From Clostridia bacterium (GTDB taxonomy: Bacteria > Bacillota > Clostridia > Christensenellales > Aristaeellaceae), in contig JAUMVT010000021.1 of assembly GCA_030529995.1 (NCBI GenBank), positions 1-37,677 on the forward strand: a stretch of 37,677 bases of DNA, read 5' to 3'. Below are positions 25,280-34,090 of this stretch, in pieces (within the stretch, counting starts at the first letter, position 1; every line of letters begins with the position of its first letter). The translations under genes were made by a program, and so were the position numbers. The notes beneath the pieces were generated by a model. The model worked only from the letters and a program-made list of their open reading frames with translations, did no database searches and was not told the DNA's origin.

Positions 25280-26905
25280 TCAGAACGTGATGGTGATTTC
25301 CGTGCCTACATTAGGCTGGCTATGCAGCGTAATGCCGGCGTGATGAAGTTGGGCACCGTGCTTCACAATGGACAGACCCAAGCCGGTGCCGCCGGTTTGC
25401 TTGCTGCGGCTCTTGTCCACCCGATAGAAGCGTTCAAACACATGGGCTTGATGTTCCTCCGGAATGCCGACGCCTGTATCCTTCACACGGATGAAGGGAT
25501 GGCTGTCATTGATACCTGTTTCTACCGTAACGGAGCCTCCGGCCTTGTTGTACTTGATGCCGTTTTCCACAACGTTGGTGATCATTTCCGCCAGCAGGGA
25601 AGCGTCTCCCTTGACCCAGGCAGGTTTGCAGTCTTTGATGATGGTCACATCGGCACGTGCGGCGGTGTCCTGCAGCTTCTCCGCACAGTCCTGAGCAAGG
25701 GCGGAAAGCTCCACGGGCTTCATTTCCTGGGAAATGCCTTCATCCAGCCGGGACAGCCGGAGAATATCCTCGATGAGGGACAAGAGCCGGTGGCTTTCCT
25801 GCTGAATCTTGCTGCCAAGCTTTCCTGCATCATCAGGATTGGCAAGGCCGGAAGCCAGCATCTCTGCGTAGCCGCTGATGGTGGTCAGGGGCGTGCGAAG
25901 CTCATGGGATACATTGGCGGAGAATTGCCGGCGGCTTTCCTCAGCGGCACGGGCAGCGGTAACATCCTGGAAGAGGATCACGGTGCCTTCACCGTTCACC
26001 GGGCTGAGGGAAATACGGAGCGTCTTGTTGTCTGCACGGAGTTCTCCATCGCCCTGACCGGCGTTCAGTAAGTCCAGCAGCACCTGATGGCGGCTGACGG
26101 CAATCAACGGACGTCCCAGAGGATCACCGTGAACCCCCAGGAAGCGCCGTGCCGCCGGGTTCATGGATAGTACGCAGGATTTGGGATCCAGAATAACCAG
26201 GCCTTCCTTCATGCCGTCCAGCACGGCATCCAGCTCGGCACGCTGGGCGGTCAGGTCGGCCATTTGCTCCGCAATGCGGTGGTTCTGCTGCTCCATGCGG
26301 CGCAGCATGGGGGACAGCTCTTCATAGGTGTCGCTGTCCAGCGGATGATCCAGGTCGATGGCGTTAATGGGCTTCACCATGCGAGTGGTCACACCCCGGG
26401 AAATCAGCATACTCAGCACCATGCACAGAATCACGCCTGCAAGCAGCCACAGGGCAACGCCACTGACGGTGCTCAGCACGGTTTTCTGCGTGCCGGCCAC
26501 ACGAAGAACGCTGCCGTTGTTCAGCCTCCGGGCAAAGTAGATGCTGTTTTCCCCCATGGTGTCGGATGCTCGGGTGGCCCAGCCGGAGCCGGAAGCAAGC
26601 GCATCGGCAATTTCCTCCCGCTGCAGGTGATTGACCATGCTTTGGTTATCATGTCGGCTGTCGTAGAGCACATTGCCGTCTGCGTCAACCAGCGTTACCC
26701 GCTGGGCATACACGCCGCTTTCCAGCAGCTGGGCAGGGTTGTCGGCAGCATTCAGCTGGGCGGACAAAGTATCCGACAGATTGGTCAGGGTGGATTTCAA
26801 CTGATTTTCCGTATACAGATACATGCCGCTGATGACCAGGATGCTCATCAGCACCGCCGTGCACAAGGCACACAGGGTTAAGCAGGAAAAAAGCTTCTTA
26901 CGCAT
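25280..26905 (-). CDS. phoR: sensor histidine kinase PhoR, 541 aa
   Basis: The ATG at 26905 has GGAGGA five bases upstream and overlaps the phoB stop; an ATG at 26911 is also possible. The layout is TM helix 1 (about 7-29), an extracellular domain to about 155, TM2 (VALWLLAGVILCMVLSM), a HAMP-like linker, a PAS domain (AVLDGMKEGLVILDPK), a HisKA domain with His334 in NVSHELRTPLT, and an HATPase domain with VVENGIKYN and GTGLGLSIVKHGAQLHH. Its place after pstCAB-phoU-phoB makes it the phosphate-starvation kinase. It probably receives signal through PhoU and the Pst transporter. Confidence 0.93.
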   Translation of the reverse strand: MRKKLFSCLTLCALCTAVLMSILVISGMYLYTENQLKSTLTNLSDTLSAQLNAADNPAQLLESGVYAQRVTLVDADGNVLYDSRHDNQSMVNHLQREEIADALASGSGWATRASDTMGENSIYFARRLNNGSVLRVAGTQKTVLSTVSGVALWLLAGVILCMVLSMLISRGVTTRMVKPINAIDLDHPLDSDTYEELSPMLRRMEQQNHRIAEQMADLTAQRAELDAVLDGMKEGLVILDPKSCVLSMNPAARRFLGVHGDPLGRPLIAVSRHQVLLDLLNAGQGDGELRADNKTLRISLSPVNGEGTVILFQDVTAARAAEESRRQFSANVSHELRTPLTTISGYAEMLASGLANPDDAGKLGSKIQQESHRLLSLIEDILRLSRLDEGISQEMKPVELSALAQDCAEKLQDTAARADVTIIKDCKPAWVKGDASLLAEMITNVVENGIKYNKAGGSVTVETGINDSHPFIRVKDTGVGIPEEHQAHVFERFYRVDKSRSKQTGGTGLGLSIVKHGAQLHHAGITLHSQPNVGTEITITF

Positions 26906-27575
26906 GGTCATCCTCCAACTTGTAGCCAAGACCTCGAACGGTGATGATGTGACTGCCGCTGCTGCCAAGCTTCTGCCGCAGGGAGCGGATGTGTACGTCC
27001 ACTGTGCGGGTGTCTCCGGCGTAGACGGTGCCCCATACGCGATCCAGCAGCTTTTCTCTGGTGATCACCGTCCCAGCATGGGTCAGGAGATAATCCAGCA
27101 GCTGAAATTCCATGTTGGTCAGGATCACCGGCACACCGTCGGCAAACACCCGATGCCGGGCACGATCCAACTCAATGCTATCCAAGCGGATGATGTCCTC
27201 CGCAGCAACATCGGAGGAGCGGCGAAGGAGCGCACGCACCCGTGCCAGCAGCTCCATAACCCCGAAAGGTTTGGTCAGGTAATCGTCAGCGCCCTCGTCC
27301 AACCCTCGCACCTTGTCTACTTCCGCATCACGGGCGGTTACCAGAATGACGGGCACCTTATGCAGATGGGCTTCCCTGCGGATAAAGCGGAGCAGACTGA
27401 CTCCGTCTTCCTCCGGCAGCATCACATCCAGCAGCACCAGCTGGGGAATGGTCTTGCGCAGTGCCTGACGGAAGGCAGATGGTTCCGCAAAACCTTCCGC
27501 CTCAAAGCCTGCCTGCCGCAGGGCATAGAGCTCCAGCTCCCGAACGCCGGCATCATCTTCCACCACGTGGATCAT
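26898..27575 (-). CDS. phoB: phosphate response regulator PhoB/PhoP (OmpR family), 225 aa
   Basis: The ATG at 27575 (MIHVVEDDAG) overlaps the phoU stop by 4 bases and has AGGAGAAG upstream; the longer frame from 27623 is not needed. The receiver domain has the acidic pair in VEDD, phospho-acceptor Asp50 (LVLLDVMLPEEDG), Thr in VTARD and Lys in LTKPF. The C-terminal winged helix contains TNMEFQLLDYLL and VDVHIRSLRQKLG. It should bind the 11-bp repeat boxes upstream of pstS and pstC (30821-30970). Named phoB here; Firmicute homologues are also called phoP. Confidence 0.94.
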   Translation of the reverse strand: MIHVVEDDAGVRELELYALRQAGFEAEGFAEPSAFRQALRKTIPQLVLLDVMLPEEDGVSLLRFIRREAHLHKVPVILVTARDAEVDKVRGLDEGADDYLTKPFGVMELLARVRALLRRSSDVAAEDIIRLDSIELDRARHRVFADGVPVILTNMEFQLLDYLLTHAGTVITREKLLDRVWGTVYAGDTRTVDVHIRSLRQKLGSSGSHIITVRGLGYKLEDDHA

Positions 27576-28222
27576 TGCAATTCTTCTCCTTTGTAGAACC
27601 CGGTGACCGCATACACCACCCATTCGGCGATATTCACCGCATGGTCGGCAATGCGCTCAAAGTACTTGGCAATCATCAGCAAATCCAGCACTTCCTGAGA
27701 CAGACCGGGGTGATCGTTCAGCATGGCAACCAGTTCCGTTTTGACACGGAGGAAGGCTTCATCCACCGCATCATCGGCGGCAATGACTTCCTCAGCCAGG
27801 GCGGTGTCCCGGTTGACAAAGGCGTCAATGGCACGGTGCACCATGTTGATGGCATCCTTTGCCATGGGACGGAAATGATCAGGCCGGGGCTTGGACAGAT
27901 CCATCATGGTGACAATTTCGCTGATGTCCGCTGCCTGGTCGCCGATGCGCTCCATGTCGGTGATCATCTTCATGGCGGCGGAAATGAGCCGCAGATCCCG
28001 TGCCACAGGCTGCTGCTGCAGCAGAAGATGCAGGCACAGGGTTTCGATTTCCCGCTCCTTGTGATCCACCCGATGGTCGCCGTTCATCACCATACGAGCC
28101 TTGTCCAGGTCTGCCGTGCGCAGTGCGTCGCAGGCATCCTCAATGGTCTGCTCTACCAAGGCGCCCATTTCAATCATCCCACGATTAAGGGATTCGATTT
28201 GTTCATCAAAATGCCTTCTCAT
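27572..28222 (-). CDS. phoU: phosphate signalling regulator PhoU, 216 aa
   Basis: The all-helical product begins RRHFDEQIESLNRGMIEMG and carries two related three-helix bundles. Metal-binding-type motifs are visible as DMERIGDQAADISE and YFERIADHAVNIAEWV, the paired E/DxxRxxDxxxN repeats of PhoU. It is a peripheral protein that couples PstSCAB activity to PhoR and prevents phosphate over-uptake. GGGAGG precedes the ATG. The start overlaps the pstB stop (TAATG) and the stop overlaps phoB. Confidence 0.95.
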   Translation of the reverse strand: MRRHFDEQIESLNRGMIEMGALVEQTIEDACDALRTADLDKARMVMNGDHRVDHKEREIETLCLHLLLQQQPVARDLRLISAAMKMITDMERIGDQAADISEIVTMMDLSKPRPDHFRPMAKDAINMVHRAIDAFVNRDTALAEEVIAADDAVDEAFLRVKTELVAMLNDHPGLSQEVLDLLMIAKYFERIADHAVNIAEWVVYAVTGFYKGEELQ

Positions 28223-28974
28223 TAGCCGAACCTCCCCGTAATGTAATCTTCTGTTCGCTTATCCTTCGGCATGGAGAACAGTTTGCCTGTTTCTCCGACC
28301 TCCACCATGTCGCCTAAGAGGAAGAAGGCGGTGACATCGCTGATTCGCACAGCCTGCTGCATGTTGTGGGTCACAATGGCAATGGTGTATTGCCCCTTCA
28401 GCTGCAGGCAAAGCTCCTCAATCTTGGAGGTGGAAATGGGATCCAGTGCGCTGGTGGGCTCGTCCATCAGCAGCACTTCCGGCTTCACGGCCAGGGCACG
28501 GGCGATGCACAGCCGCTGCTGCTGACCGCCGGAGAGACCCAGGGCACTCTTGTTCAGCCGATCCTTTAATTCATCCCAGATGGCAGCGTCCCGCAGGGAG
28601 GTTTCCACCAGCTCATCCAGCTGTGACTTCTTGTGAATGCCGTGGGTGCGGGGGCCGTAAGCGATGTTGTCATAGACGCTCATGGGGAAGGGGTTAGGCT
28701 TCTGGAAGACCATGCCAACCCGGCGGCGAAGGAGGTTCACATCCATATCGCCGTAAATATCTTCGCCGTCCAGGGTGACTTTTCCTGTTACCCGGCAATC
28801 AGGCACCAGGTCATTCATCCGGTTCAGGGTTTTCAGCAGGGTGGATTTGCCGCAGCCGGAAGGGCCGATGAAGGCGGTAATCTCTTTTTCGGCAATGTCC
28901 AGGTTGATGCCTTTCAGGGCATGGAAGGAACCGTAATACAGGTTCAAATCCTTAATGGCAATTTTGGCGTTCAT
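28222..28974 (-). CDS. pstB: phosphate ABC transporter ATP-binding protein PstB, 250 aa
   Basis: The ABC ATPase has Walker [13 protein letters not shown], a Q-loop in [18 protein letters not shown] (diagnostic for PstB), signature [15 protein letters not shown], Walker [14 protein letters not shown] and the His switch [11 protein letters not shown]. It energises phosphate import through PstC/PstA. The ATG at 28974 overlaps the pstA stop by 4 bases and has GGAGG at six bases. The length is standard. Confidence 0.97.
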
Positions 28975-29903
28975 GCTTTGCCTCCGATCTTCTTGGAAAT
29001 CAGGGTGGACAGTCCGTTCATGCCAAGCACGAACAGCAGCAGAATGACGGCGGTGGCGTAGGCTTCGCCGATGTACAGCCCTTCGCCGGAGAGTACGTAC
29101 ATGTGCAGGGAAAGGGTACGACCGGAAGAAAGAATGTTTTCCGGCAGCTTGGCCACCGTGCCGGTGGTGTACAGCAGGGCGGCTGTTTCGCCTACGATGC
29201 GGCCAATGGCCAGCACAATGCCGGAAAGAATGCCCGGCATGGCAGGAGGAAGAACGATCTTTACCACCGTACGCAGTTTGCCTGCACCCAGGCCGAAGGA
29301 ACCTTCACGGTAGCTGTCCGGCACGGAAAGCAGGGCTTCTTCTGTGGTGCGGAGGATCAGGGGCAGCACCATCAGCGACAAGGTCAGGGCACCGGAAAGC
29401 AGGGACAGCTTCAGAGACAGGGCATTCACGAAGAACATCATGCCGAAAAGGCCGTAAATGATGCTGGGAATGCCGCTCAGGGTTTCTGCTGTAATGCGGA
29501 TCAGCCGCACCATGACGCTGTTTCGCTTGGCGTACTCCGCCAGGTAGATGGCACCGCCGATGCCCAGCGGAATGGACACAAGCAGCGCCAATGCCGTGAT
29601 GATCAGCGTGTTGATCAGGGATGGCAGCATGCTTTGATTTTCTGTGGTAAAGTTCAGGGAAAACAGCTCCGGCTTCAGGTTCGGAATGCCCTTCACCAGA
29701 ATGTCACCAATCAGATACAGCAGGGAGAAAAGGGTGATAATCATGGCCAGGCGGCACAGGATCCGTACCAGGGCACTGAAGGGGTGCCGAATCAGCCGAT
29801 TCTTTTCTTTCTTGAAGAAAAGCCGAAGCTGGTCGCCTGTGGAAGGCTTGGCAGGTGCGGTATCCTGAGGAGCAGGCTGATTGGACAGGCAAAGACTGCT
29901 CAT
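28971..29903 (-). CDS. pstA: phosphate ABC transporter permease PstA, 310 aa
   Basis: The membrane permease has about six helices. A cytosolic N-terminus of roughly 45 residues, rich in Pro/Ala and then Lys/Arg ([14 protein letters not shown]), precedes the first helix and is longer than in many PstA proteins. The family signatures are [30 protein letters not shown] and [18 protein letters not shown] (EAA-like loop that docks PstB). It has AGGAGGG before the ATG at 29903, which overlaps the pstC stop by 4 bases. Confidence 0.95.
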
Positions 29904-30769
29904 TGGGCTTCCCTCCTTTTCAGGGCTGAGAACAGCAGGTTAATCAGCAGGATGAAGACAAACAGCACCACGCCGGTGGCAATGAGGGCTTCCCGGTGAA
30001 GGTCAGCGGCGTAGCCCATTTCGGTGACAATGTTGCTGGTCAGGGTACGCACGCCTTTCAGGATTCCTTTGGGCATCCGTGCCTGATTACCGGCCACCAT
30101 AACCACGGCCATGGTTTCGCCGATGGCACGGCCGATGGACAGCACTACTGCCGCCAGAATGCCACTTTTTGCTGCCGGAACCGTGGCACGGAACACGCTG
30201 CGTTCATCCGTTGCACCCAGCGCAAGACTGCCTTCATAGTAGCTTTCCGGCACGGCACGCACGGCGCTGGCGGTCAGCTGAATCATGGTGGGAAGAATCA
30301 TCATACCCAGCAGCAGGCTTGCCGTCAGGATGCTCATGCCCTGTCCGCCGAAAACCTTCCGTACCATGGGAACCAAGGTGGTGATGCCGAAGAAGCCGTA
30401 TACCACGCTGGGCACGCCGGCCATGAGGGCAATCAAAGGCTGCAGCACCTTTTCGACCTTCTTTGGGCAGAACCGAGCCATGTAGACTCCGGCAAGGATG
30501 CCGATGGGAGCACCTACCAGCAGGGCTCCTGCCGTGACGTAGACGCTGCCCAAGATCATGGGCAAAATGCCGTATGTGCCGGAGTCACCGTCCCCGGGCG
30601 CCCAGGTGGTTCCCGAAAGGAACGACCATAGGTTGTATTTGCTGAAGAACGGAAGACCGTTGGCAAAGAGGAAGACGCAGATCAGCAGTACCGCAGCAAT
30701 GCAGAACAAGGCCGCCGCCGCAAAGACCCATCGCATGATCTGCTCCTTCCAATGCGTTTTCGCTTGCAT
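29900..30769 (-). CDS. pstC: phosphate ABC transporter permease PstC, 289 aa
   Basis: The six-helix permease has GILAGVYMARFCPKK, LMAGVPSVVYGFFG and YYEGSLALGATDERSVFRA as family marks. The start at 30769 is used with AAAGGATG upstream. An internal ATG at 30736 has a much better AAGGAG site at six bases and would give 278 residues starting MRWVFAAAA, so the true start is open. It is the first gene of the leftward pstCAB-phoU-phoB-phoR operon. The promoter region has Pho boxes at 30821-30861. Confidence 0.94.
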   Translation of the reverse strand: MQAKTHWKEQIMRWVFAAAALFCIAAVLLICVFLFANGLPFFSKYNLWSFLSGTTWAPGDGDSGTYGILPMILGSVYVTAGALLVGAPIGILAGVYMARFCPKKVEKVLQPLIALMAGVPSVVYGFFGITTLVPMVRKVFGGQGMSILTASLLLGMMILPTMIQLTASAVRAVPESYYEGSLALGATDERSVFRATVPAAKSGILAAVVLSIGRAIGETMAVVMVAGNQARMPKGILKGVRTLTSNIVTEMGYAADLHREALIATGVVLFVFILLINLLFSALKRREAQ

Positions 30770-30801
30770 TCGTTACTTCATCCTTTCATTGATATGTACA
30801 A

Positions 30802-30807
30802 ATGATA
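30802..30807 (-). promoter_or_regulatory. -10 element of the pstC operon
   Basis: TATCAT on the minus strand, 33 bases before the pstC ATG at 30769. No -35 box is visible at the usual distance, as expected for an activator-dependent promoter; Pho boxes begin 13 bases upstream. Confidence 0.5.
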
Positions 30808-30820
30808 TGGTAATCCGTGT

Positions 30821-30861
30821 ATGTAAAAGGGTAAGGGGTAATGTGTAAAATCTATGTAAAA
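30821..30861 (-). promoter_or_regulatory. Pho boxes for the pstC operon
   Basis: On the minus strand TTTTACA(T/C) repeats occur at 30861-30854, 30850-30843 and 30828-30821, offset by 11 and 22 bases. This is the period of PhoP/PhoB-type direct repeats in Firmicutes (TT-A-CA core every 11 bp). Confidence 0.75.
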
Positions 30862-30928
30862 TCTTGCGCCGGGCAGCGCAGAAACGGGATTTCTTCATTA
30901 TATAGTCAGGAAAGAATGCCGCCATGGA

Positions 30929-30984
30929 TTTTACATGGGTTTTACATAAGTGCGCTTTTGCTTTTTACACGGGATGGATAGAAT
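30929..30984 (+). promoter_or_regulatory. Pho boxes and -10 of pstS
   Basis: TTTTACAT at 30929-30936 and 30940-30947 are spaced exactly 11 bases, with TTTTACAC at 30963-30970. A TAGAAT -10 lies at 30979-30984. With the minus-strand set this gives six boxes in two arrays pointing outward to both promoters. Confidence 0.75.
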
Positions 30985-31019
30985 ACATCTTGTACCAAAC
31001 AGAAAGGAAGGAAACGAAC

Positions 31020-31859
31020 ATGAAGAAGATCGTAAGTTTGGCTCTGTCCCTGATGATGGCTGTAACGGCCACCAGCGCTTTCGCAGCGAGTGAGATCACG
31101 GTAATCAGCCGTGAGGCAGGCTCCGGCACCCGGGGTGCTTTCATCGAGCTGACCGGTGTGGAGGCCAAGAACGAGGCTGGCGAAAAGGTTGACTACACCT
31201 ATGAGGAAGCCATCATTCAGAATGGTACCGCACAGGTACTGACCACCGTGGAGAGCGATGAGAACGCCATCGGCTACATCTCCCTGGGCTCCCTGAATGA
31301 AAAGGTGAAGGCTGTTACCGTGGAAGGCGTGGAAGCCACTGCCGAGAACGTGAAGAACGGCACCTATGCCCTGGCTCGTCCCTTCAACATCGCTGTGAAG
31401 GAAGGTCTGAGCGAGACTGCACAGGACTTTGTGAACTGGCTGGCCGGTGCTGATGCACAGGCAATCGTGGCCGATAAGGGCTATGTAGCCAAGGAAGCTG
31501 AAGAGTATGTTGCTGCCCCTAAGGCCGGCAAGATTGTTGTGGGCGGTTCTTCTTCCGTTGGTCCCCTGATGGAGAAGCTGGCTGAGGCTTATATGACCGC
31601 TAACCCTGACGTGACCATTGAAGTGCAGGTCAGCGATTCCACCACCGGCATGACCAAGGCAGCTGACGGTACCTTTGACATCGGCATGGCCTCCCGTGAG
31701 CTGAAGGATTCCGAAAAGGAAACCCTCACCGGCATCACCATCTGCCAGGACGGCATCGCAGTGATTGTGAACACCAACAACGCAGTAGAGAACCTGACCA
31801 TTGAGCAGATTCGCCAAATCTTCGTAGGCGAAGTGACCGACTGGTCTGCACTGAACTAA
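31020..31859 (+). CDS. pstS: phosphate-binding protein PstS, circularly permuted order, 279 aa
   Basis: The ATG at 31020 has AAAGGAAGG upstream; the longer frame starts in the Pho boxes and is rejected. A signal peptide ends near AFA (residue 22) and has no lipobox Cys. The mature part begins EITVISREAGSGTRGAF, which in ordinary PstS is in the second half. The phosphate-loop GGSSSVGP (residues 175-182) and DIGMASRELKDSE, normally in the first half, come after. The protein ends VGEVTDWSALN, the segment that usually leads straight into the xITVISRE strand. The halves are therefore swapped, yet all binding elements (Ser177-179, SGTRG) are present. It is divergent from pstC, with Pho boxes between. 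Confidence 0.93.
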   Translation: MKKIVSLALSLMMAVTATSAFAASEITVISREAGSGTRGAFIELTGVEAKNEAGEKVDYTYEEAIIQNGTAQVLTTVESDENAIGYISLGSLNEKVKAVTVEGVEATAENVKNGTYALARPFNIAVKEGLSETAQDFVNWLAGADAQAIVADKGYVAKEAEEYVAAPKAGKIVVGGSSSVGPLMEKLAEAYMTANPDVTIEVQVSDSTTGMTKAADGTFDIGMASRELKDSEKETLTGITICQDGIAVIVNTNNAVENLTIEQIRQIFVGEVTDWSALN

Positions 31860-31881
31860 AACCAAGGTACAACAAAAAAAG

Positions 31882-31958: not shown

Positions 31959-32996
31959 TTACCGTGCGCTGCGAACCTCTGCCCACAGGGCGTTGTACAC
32001 AGCGAGGAAGGAGCTGTCGATATCGTTGAAGTACTCGCAGTTGGCAAGGTCTTCAGCAGAAGGATTCATGACAGGATTAGAGGTGTACTCTTCACCCATC
32101 AGCTCGATGGCACCGCTGTTGGGGGAAGAATACCAGATGGCTTCACAGTTTTTCTGGGCAATGTCGGGGCGGCACAGGAAGTCAATGAACTTCTCCGCAT
32201 TCTCCTTATTCTTCGCATCCTTGGGAATCACCATGCAGTCCACCCATACGTTGCTGCCTTCCTTGGGAATGGCATAAGCCAAATCAGCATTCAGGTCGAT
32301 GGCATACTGGGCATCACCGGACCACATGACGGCAAGAGCAGCCTCGTTCATGACCATCTTGTCCTTGGTTTCGTCCACCTGATAGGCCTTCACAATACCG
32401 GCCTGCTTCTGCTCAATCAGCTTATCCTTGGCAGCTTCTAGTGCCAGAATATCCCGGGTGTTCATGGAATAGCCAAGGTAGCGCAGGGTAATGCCCATGG
32501 AGTCGCGAATGGAGTCCAGCATGAAGACGTTGTTGGTGTACTTCTCATCCCACAGGATGCCCCAGGAATCCACGGCCTCGTCGACCATGGTGGTGTTGTA
32601 CAGGATGCCGACGGTGCCCCACATGTAGGGCATGGAGTGGGCGTTGTCCGCATCGTAGGAGGGATTGCGCAGGTTATCCAGCAGATACTTGGCATTGGGG
32701 ATGTTGTCATAGTTCAGCTCGGCCAGCAGATCCTTTTCCAGCATCCGCTCCACAATGTACTCGGAGGGGAAGCATACGTCAAAGGCACTGGGAGAGGCTT
32801 CCACCTGTACCATCATGTCCTCGTTGGTGGTGAAGCACATGTAGTTGACCTTGATGCCGGTTTCTTCTTCGAACTGCTTGATGACATCCTCATCAATGTA
32901 GTCCACCCAGTTGAAGACGTTTACCACCTCATCGGCCAGTGCACAAACGGGGAGAAACAGAGCCAGCGCCAGCAGCAGAGCAATCACTTTTTTCAT
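31959..32996 (-). CDS. potD: spermidine/putrescine-binding protein PotD, copy 1, 345 aa
   Basis: A signal peptide ends at ALAD (about residue 21); the Cys at PVC is not in a lipobox, so the protein is probably not lipidated. The mature start DEVVNVFNWVDYIDEDVIKQ has the Trp/Tyr-containing NWxDYI segment of PotD. FPSEYIVERM, MWSGDAQYA and NVWVDCMVIP carry the conserved acidic and aromatic polyamine-binding positions. It delivers polyamine to PotBC. AAGGAGG precedes the ATG. It is the last gene of the operon, followed by the shared terminator, and a close paralogue of the gene at 33026. Confidence 0.92.
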   Translation of the reverse strand: MKKVIALLLALALFLPVCALADEVVNVFNWVDYIDEDVIKQFEEETGIKVNYMCFTTNEDMMVQVEASPSAFDVCFPSEYIVERMLEKDLLAELNYDNIPNAKYLLDNLRNPSYDADNAHSMPYMWGTVGILYNTTMVDEAVDSWGILWDEKYTNNVFMLDSIRDSMGITLRYLGYSMNTRDILALEAAKDKLIEQKQAGIVKAYQVDETKDKMVMNEAALAVMWSGDAQYAIDLNADLAYAIPKEGSNVWVDCMVIPKDAKNKENAEKFIDFLCRPDIAQKNCEAIWYSSPNSGAIELMGEEYTSNPVMNPSAEDLANCEYFNDIDSSFLAVYNALWAEVRSAR

Positions 32997-33025
32997 GGGA
33001 CATCCTCCTTCTTGATGATAGATGA

Positions 33026-34063
33026 TTACTTGGCGTTCTTTACGTCATTCCACAGGGCGTTGTAAATGGCCAGGTAAGCAGAGTCCAGGTCGTGAATGGT
33101 TTCGCACCGGGCAACGGCGTCGTCCGAGGGATTCATCACATTGTTGTTGGCGTACTCTTCGCCCATCAGCTCAATGGCGGCAGCGTTGGGGGAGGAATAC
33201 ATGATGTATTCGCAGTTCTGCTTGGCAATGTCAGGGCGGCACAGGAAGTTGATGAACTTCTCGGCGTTTTCCTTATTGGCGGCCGTCTTGGGGATCACCA
33301 TGCAGTCCACCCACACATTGCTGCCTTCCTTGGGAATCACATAAGCAAGGTCAGGATTCATGGAGATGGCATACTGGGCATCACCCGACCACATGACGGC
33401 CAAGGCGGCTTCGCCCTGGATCATCATGTCCTTGGTCTGATCCACCTGGTAGGCCTTCACCATGCCGGACTGCTTTTGTTCAATGAGCTTCTCCTTAGCG
33501 GCCTCCAGTGCGGTAATATCCGTGGTGGACATGTTGCTGCCCAGCATCCGCAGGGTCAAGCCCATGGTGTTGCGGATGGAGTCCAGCATGATCACATTGC
33601 CCTTGTAACGCTCGTCCCACAGCACCGTCCAGGAATCAGGCTCTTCCTCCACCATGGTCTTGTTGTATACCAGACCGGTGGTGCCCCACATGTAGGGAAC
33701 GGAGTGGGCGTTGTTGGCGTCATAGGTAGGATTCTTCAGACTGTCCAGAATGTACGTCATGTTGGGCACATTGTCATAATTGATTTCGGCCAGCATGTCG
33801 TTCTGCATCAGCCGTTCCACAATATATTCGGAGGGAAAGCACAGGTCAAAGGAACCGGGATTGGCTTCCATTTGGAGAATCAGGTCTTCGTTGGTGGTGA
33901 AGCAGATGTAGTTCACCTTGATGCCGGTCTCTTCTTCAAATTGCTTGATAACGGCTTCATCGATGTAGTCTTCCCAGTTGAAGACGTTGACCACTTCTTC
34001 AGCAGCGGCAAGGGAAGGAACAATGACCAGCAAGGCCAGCAACAGGGCAAGGAACTTCTTCAT
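33026..34063 (-). CDS. potD: spermidine/putrescine-binding protein PotD, copy 2, 345 aa
   Basis: The ATG at 34063 is preferred over 34069 because GGAGG is seven bases before it. The signal peptide ends near SLAAA with no Cys. The mature protein EEVVNVFNWEDYIDEAVIKQ parallels copy 1, with the same FPSEYIVER, MWSGDAQYA and NVWVDCMVIPK segments. It differs in several loop positions (for example LILQMEANPGSFDLC versus MMVQVEASPSAFDVC), so ligand preference may differ. The two copies lie 29 bases apart after potC, a tandem duplication. Confidence 0.92.
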   Translation of the reverse strand: MKKFLALLLALLVIVPSLAAAEEVVNVFNWEDYIDEAVIKQFEEETGIKVNYICFTTNEDLILQMEANPGSFDLCFPSEYIVERLMQNDMLAEINYDNVPNMTYILDSLKNPTYDANNAHSVPYMWGTTGLVYNKTMVEEEPDSWTVLWDERYKGNVIMLDSIRNTMGLTLRMLGSNMSTTDITALEAAKEKLIEQKQSGMVKAYQVDQTKDMMIQGEAALAVMWSGDAQYAISMNPDLAYVIPKEGSNVWVDCMVIPKTAANKENAEKFINFLCRPDIAKQNCEYIMYSSPNAAAIELMGEEYANNNVMNPSDDAVARCETIHDLDSAYLAIYNALWNDVKNAK

Positions 34064-34090
34064 GTGCATACCTCCGTGATTGCAGTTTTT

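Follow-up and report, generated by a model that had tools for sequence, protein, structure and literature searches.

A circularly permuted, probably functional phosphate-binding protein PstS in Clostridia and its relation to ordinary-order PstS

The pst locus and the order of the PstS halves

In the window, by which we mean the whole analysed stretch of 37,677 nucleotides from a Clostridia bacterium, the plus-strand open reading frame (ORF) at 31020–31859 encodes a complete PstS of 279 amino acids in which the former C-terminal half precedes the former N-terminal half. The residues run from a signal peptide through ITVISREAGSGTRG ... RPFNI ... GYV and a linker to KIVVGGSSSVGP ... DIGMASRELKD ... 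VTDWSALN, with GGSSSVGP placed after the linker and the protein terminating at VTDWSALN (Table 1). A profile search of the window's own genome (2.54 Mb, 102 contigs, 92.2% complete) located PF12849 (PBP_like_2) positions 127–265 at 31077–31448 and positions 5–131 at 31512–31871, i.e. in swapped order; each half alone exceeded the cut-off, and the total on the window protein was 120 bits against a cut-off of 27. The translation and the two swapped PF12849 pieces confirm the preliminary description, which had read the gene as a PstS with exchanged halves, and the circular permutation that it placed at the loop before ITVISRE is likewise supported. It had also considered whether an ordinary pstS accompanies the permuted one; this was looked for, and neither an ordinary copy nor any second PF12849 protein was found in the genome at its 92.2% completeness. 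The ordinary-order NCBIfam model TIGR02136, which exceeds its cut-off in 155 of 249 phylum-sample genomes, scored the window protein at 186.3 bits in two stretches, below the cut-off of 206.6, implying that annotation can miss or mislabel permuted PstS.

An in-frame ATG at 30924, upstream of 31020, offers an alternative start; the ATG at 31020 is preceded by a purine-rich stretch and, as judged by eye, yields an ordinary signal peptide. The window protein has no lipobox-like cysteine pattern, and neither do 10 of 80 relatives. That the lipidation machinery has been lost was considered as a cause and rejected, since four Lgt matches and one lspA occur in the window's own genome. At 31959–34069 a pair of neighbouring, similar extracellular binding proteins (31959–32996 and 33026–34069), presumably PotD-like, lies near transporter-like minus-strand genes, and by eye their signal peptides lack a lipobox cysteine too.

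Table 1. Coordinates of the permuted pstS, its parts and the neighbouring pst and regulatory genes
Feature	Position	Strand	Basis
Sensor histidine kinase	25280..26968	-	PF00512, PF02518
Response regulator, downstream of phoU	26898..27623	-	PF00072, PF00486
phoU	27572..28222	-	TIGR02135, 210.6 bits, above cut-off
pstB	28222..28974	-	TIGR00972, 411.9 bits, above cut-off
pstA	28971..29903	-	TIGR00974, 263.5 bits, above cut-off
pstC, divergent from pstS	29900..30769	-	TIGR02138, 288.6 bits, above cut-off
Signal peptide, residues 1–22, no lipobox cysteine	31020..31085	+	Sequence; cleavage site by eye
Former C-terminal half, residues 25–156, now first, with REAGSGTR	31092..31487	+	PF12849 127–265; colinear with 4h1x
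Phosphate loop R-E-A-G-S-G-T-R, residues 31–38	31110..31133	+	R31, E32 and G34–R38 invariant in 44/44
Fusion linker, old C-terminus to old N-terminus, residues 157–169	31488..31526	+	Between the half-profiles
Former N-terminal half, residues 170–279, now last, with GGSSSVGP, SDSTTG and DIGMASREL	31527..31856	+	PF12849 5–131

PstC is encoded beside 77 of the 82 permuted ORFs in the 80 related loci defined below, and within the fetched DNA pstC, pstA, pstB and phoU are all near 62 of them. In 75 of the 77 ORFs with PstC the permuted pstS precedes pstC in the same orientation, and in L003 and L004, which hold the two nearest relatives of the window protein, the two genes lie on opposite strands; among the loci examined, only these two and the window's genome, with its intergenic region at 30769–31020, have pstC on the opposite strand.

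The permuted order in other genomes and in a solved structure

The 80 named loci are the best 80 of 138 relatives found among genome contigs, a list that favours permuted forms because the query was itself the permuted protein. In all 80 kept loci the C-terminal half comes before the N-terminal half, the ordinary order occurring in none. By record title they comprise 67 Bacillota, 4 Spirochaetota, 3 Synergistota, 2 Campylobacterota and 4 unplaced loci, many of them from metagenome-assembled genomes (MAGs), so that labels may be wrong. At L043, L045, L046, L061 and L065 the permuted pstS lies on MAG contigs labelled Helicobacteraceae or Synergistaceae, where transfer or mis-binning is possible.

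For wider sampling we used a profile, A1, made from an alignment of 44 permuted proteins (the window protein, P0001, and those of 43 loci out of the 80). Two samples drawn without regard to permuted pstS, and counted without the window's genome, gave full-length colinear A1 matches in at least 26 of 147 genomes (class) and at least 7 of 249 genomes (phylum), together with one match cut by a contig end; both counts are lower bounds, as divergent permuted proteins may escape the profile. The scores put the swapped order beyond chance: colinear matches over the full length of the permuted profile reached 213–452 bits, and the highest score of any single half from an ordinary protein was 162 bits. 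Of 35 genomes chosen for their permuted locus, 29 had no further split-order match, suggesting that the permuted protein is usually the sole close PstS of its genome; among the same 35, G433 carried one ordinary copy with both halves above 100 bits, and G437, G415, G423, G411 and G412 gave weaker or partial split-order matches. Two full-length permuted copies were present in each of G411, G414, G427 and G434. Permuted PstS is in this sense widespread and often the only close PstS that a genome has.

A permuted PstS also exists in the PDB. With phmmer, chain 4h1x_A ('Phosphate-binding protein pstS 2') gave one colinear match, pairing P0001 20–277 with chain positions 5–263 at an E-value of 1e-63 and with 116 of 257 aligned residues identical (45%), and of the 31 PDB sequences matched by the A1 profile only 4h1x was covered end to end in one stretch. 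In the printed alignments 4q8r and 4gd5 matched in two swapped stretches; 1twy and 4exl also matched in two, the better of which pairs the end of P0001 with the start of the chain. By the printed alignment 4h1x has the permuted order over its whole chain and shares the break point and the short linker with the window protein, but it comes from another lineage, which we take to be Streptococcus pneumoniae; the window protein lacks a lipobox cysteine, and 4h1x was compared by its PDB chain. Ordinary PstS of the TIGR02136 kind (4q8r, 4gd5) is homologous to the window protein in both halves and alike in its pocket motifs, but carries the halves in reverse order, and the W..L loop found at the junction in 4q8r is the one that is cut open in the window protein.

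To our knowledge, few transporter binding proteins have been documented as naturally circularly permuted. Searching the titles and abstract openings of the open-licence literature, we found no apparent description of a circularly permuted PstS, and words beginning with 'permut' do not occur in the text of PMC4913102 or PMC12421899. According to PMC4990184, MglB-2 (Tp0684) of Treponema pallidum is a circularly permuted sugar-binding protein found mostly in treponemes and Gram-positive bacteria; like the window protein, it serves an ABC transporter and is naturally permuted. MglB-2 binds glucose, and we liken it to permuted PstS by its circular permutation alone.

Predicted structure and the phosphate pocket

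AlphaFold2 run on the A1 alignment returned a model with a mean pLDDT of 93.1, a pTM of 0.83 and no residue below 50. For a two-lobe PstS fold with permuted connectivity, the sequence match to the solved chain 4h1x gives indirect evidence. In this model the N-terminal strand 27–31 leads directly into the phosphate loop and helix 36–45, and the two longest strands are 119–127 and 236–251, which look like the two lobe crossings. From the strand pattern we infer that lobe 1 would span residues about 128–240 in one piece with the linker inside, and that lobe 2 would combine residues 26–118 and 252–279. With the long strands taken as lobe crossings, the break falls within lobe 2 and away from the hinge, and the expectation in the preliminary description that the new N-terminus lies in a hinge-side strand is therefore doubtful. 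In terms of topology, the short linker joins the old N- and C-termini of PstS, and the new ends would open in a lobe 2 loop that follows the FxGxxxxW segment and precedes the ITVISRE strand, making lobe 1 one continuous stretch and splitting lobe 2. The N-terminal end would then leave from lobe 2, and it is predicted to be lipid-tethered in most relatives and free of a lipid tether in the window protein. Since the membrane tether would move to the other lobe, permuted PstS offers a test of whether tether position matters for docking.

All 44 aligned permuted proteins agree at R31, E32, G34, S35, G36, T37, R38, G176, S177, S179, S207, G210, S225 and R226. We assume that REAGSGTR corresponds to the phosphate loop of Escherichia coli PstS and that the invariant residues belong to the motifs contacting phosphate there; these motifs, as represented by the invariant A1 columns, are kept in the window protein. 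The invariant ligand-loop residues, the pst neighbours and the model with a pLDDT of 93 argue for a working phosphate-binding protein. Given the retained pocket residues, the permuted PstS would be predicted to close on phosphate and to dock on PstC/PstA as usual.

Two readings would deny the gene this role, and we hold neither to be plausible. That an assembly or binning artefact joined two gene fragments in the wrong order is an idea to which the draft state of the window's genome, with its 102 contigs, lends some colour; the preliminary description had also named an assembly rearrangement at the locus as a possible refutation. It is ruled out by the recurrence of the same order in independent genomes, namely in 80 of 80 kept loci and in the colinear full-length matches of the class and phylum samples, and in one PDB chain, which leaves the chance of an artefact negligible. 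The same class and phylum matches and the solved structure of 4h1x bear out the earlier suggestion that the permuted form is a lineage trait, not a unique case. It is also very improbable that the permuted protein binds another ligand, or acts only as a sensor, instead of being the phosphate-binding subunit of the transporter. Such a reading would draw on the divergent orientation of pstS and pstCAB in the window, but the pocket motifs are invariant across the 44 proteins, pstS heads pstC on the same strand in 75 of 77 cases, and most genomes with a permuted protein have no other close PstS. The depositors of 4h1x moreover named it pstS 2, and pneumococcal Pst2 is described, in PMC4913102, as an active phosphate transporter, one of two. 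The window gene very probably encodes a naturally circularly permuted, functional PstS, the exported phosphate-binding protein of a PstSCAB importer.

Origin of the permutation

For tree building the halves of each protein were set in one common order, giving 219 distinct proteins after four partial ORFs were dropped. A careful PstS tree of 48 of the 219 rows, from which five divergent permuted rows were omitted on purpose, united the permuted proteins, 4h1x among them, in one clade (91/88; 92% of 200 bootstrap trees). The number of order changes needed was 2 in a FastTree analysis of all 219 proteins, 3 and 4 in trees of the single halves and 3 in a quick tree of 70 rows. In all 137 distinct permuted proteins the linker measures 13–27 residues (median 15) and contains a Tyr or Phe, a feature not rare by itself in a 15-residue linker and here counted in related proteins. 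Tandem-fusion intermediates of the form N-C-N-C were absent among ORFs of at least 80 amino acids in 239 sequences, made up of the window and 238 loci of which some overlap; these yielded 154 C-N arrangements, 86 N-C and 1 N only, and no longer chain.

We favour a single origin on account of the shared break point and linker, but the trees are not unanimous, and the rejection of a permuted-only clade by PstC and by PstS and PstC combined, given below, also speaks against it. The alternative, repeated independent permutation at one and the same loop, draws on the FastTree analysis, in which eight divergent permuted proteins stand beside six ordinary ones and 2 changes are needed, and on PstS-only AU tests, which permit several placements. 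We consider it unlikely, given the break and linker region common to all 137 proteins, the single clade of the careful tree, albeit obtained without the five divergent rows, and the fact that the PstC partners form one clade with a support of 100 once an ordinary-order group, described below, is included. Most likely the permuted form arose once, in the branch of PstS to which 4q8r is related, and moved together with its pst operon.

An ordinary-order group within the permuted operon lineage

L085 encodes an ordinary-order protein from the window's taxonomic order. Used as a query on 248 genomes it gave more proteins of its kind, and its matches sorted cleanly on reading: 24 of 24 loci colinear with L085 were ordinary (L187–L210) and 28 of 28 split loci were permuted (L211–L238). 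The resulting group, ord8, named after the eight members used in trees, contains 16 distinct ordinary proteins, all from the same taxonomic order. None of the 16 has the Trp at the junction, which is present in the other 66 of the 82 distinct ordinary proteins; here the junction Trp was counted alone, and a stricter rule (Trp plus a Gly-rich turn) divided the 82 proteins 49 to 33.

PstC places ord8 among the permuted operons. In a PstC tree (45 rows, quick method) the ord8 PstC proteins are nested in the partners of permuted PstS; permuted and ord8 partners form one clade with a support of 100, and ord8 groups with a divergent permuted group at 98. A clade restricted to permuted operons was rejected by PstC (p-AU 0.0002) and by PstS and PstC combined (p-AU 0.0016). 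On a FastTree of 197 PstC sequences the order label changes 2 times, against a shuffled mean of 57.5. PstB unites ord8 and the divergent permuted group at 0.997, with the ordinary operons L262–L264 and L273 also falling among the permuted ones, and in the PhoU tree the groups are widely mixed. Of 50 loci scanned, 18 have PstC and PstA in one ORF, 10 from ord8 and 8 from the divergent permuted group; the fusion was not seen in the other 32, which include one ord8 contig that is too short and one permuted locus without a reachable permease. Two fused ORFs, one per group, each contain two BPD_transp_1 stretches (Pfam). The fused ORFs measure 594–689 amino acids (L239, L241–L249, L250–L256 and L269) and belong to ordinary and permuted operons of the window's taxonomic order. 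In ten loci of one family compared with longer flanks, one ordinary locus ending at a contig edge, all 5 permuted loci and the 4 other ordinary ones share the arrangement pstS, fused permease, pstB. Next comes phoU in 2 of the 5 permuted loci (not in L279, L283 and L284) and in all 4 ordinary ones; two further unnamed families come after that in all 5 permuted loci, and both are present in 2 of the 4 ordinary ones.

PstS itself is less decisive. Relative to the free quick tree, the first set of AU tests gave +15.4 log units for keeping the permuted proteins together (p-AU 0.762), +3.6 for ord8 with the divergent permuted group (p-AU 0.574) and −1.7 for ord8 with the main permuted group (p-AU 0.482); the second set gave +1.2 for the permuted proteins together (p-AU 0.574) and +1.0 for ord8 with the divergent group (p-AU 0.57). 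These PstS-only tests bring no decision and lean slightly against nesting of ord8. In the careful PstS tree ord8 and two other ordinary proteins, weakly joined (82/56), form the sister of the permuted clade, so the nesting of L085 among permuted proteins seen in quick trees is unsupported there; in a combined PstS and PstC tree ord8 is nested inside the permuted proteins, with the signal coming from PstC. The best-scoring partner of ord8 proteins was permuted in 12 of 16 cases and ordinary in 4, with 137 permuted and 66 ordinary proteins on offer. The main permuted group has 25 typical residues, of which ord8 proteins carry a median of 7 (4–9), the divergent permuted proteins 4 (3–7) and 48 ordinary proteins, with distant ones left out, 1 (0–8).

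The nesting of PstC, the shared PstC–PstA fusion and the missing Trp loop together suggest a return to the ordinary order, which trees of PstS do not show. PstS would have been permuted once and then have reverted in the window's taxonomic order after the pstC–pstA fusion, the ord8 protein being re-closed by a new short loop without the ancestral W..LGG segment. We put this forward tentatively, as a possible but somewhat doubtful history. For the competing account, in which an ordinary gene locally replaced the pstS of the ord8 operons, we see an even chance, which makes it at least as likely as reversal, with other histories taking up the remainder. Replacement would fit the PstS-only trees, which keep the permuted proteins together as well as or better than they join ord8 to the divergent group (15.4 against 3.6 and 1.2 against 1.0 log units), the sister position of ord8 in the careful tree and the four ord8 proteins that score best against an ordinary one. 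It is harder to reconcile with the twelve that score best against a permuted one, though more permuted proteins were offered, and with the loss of the junction Trp in every ord8 member against its presence in the other 66 of the 82 ordinary proteins; none of the ordinary proteins compared showed the short loop expected of a donor. If reversal were true, one protein family would contain both a natural permutation and its reversal, and would provide a natural before-permuted-after series for a change of topology without functional loss.

Permuted pstS genes also occur as tandem pairs, at L167 (G361:C12) and at G427:C32, and such pairs are possible raw material for re-permutation.
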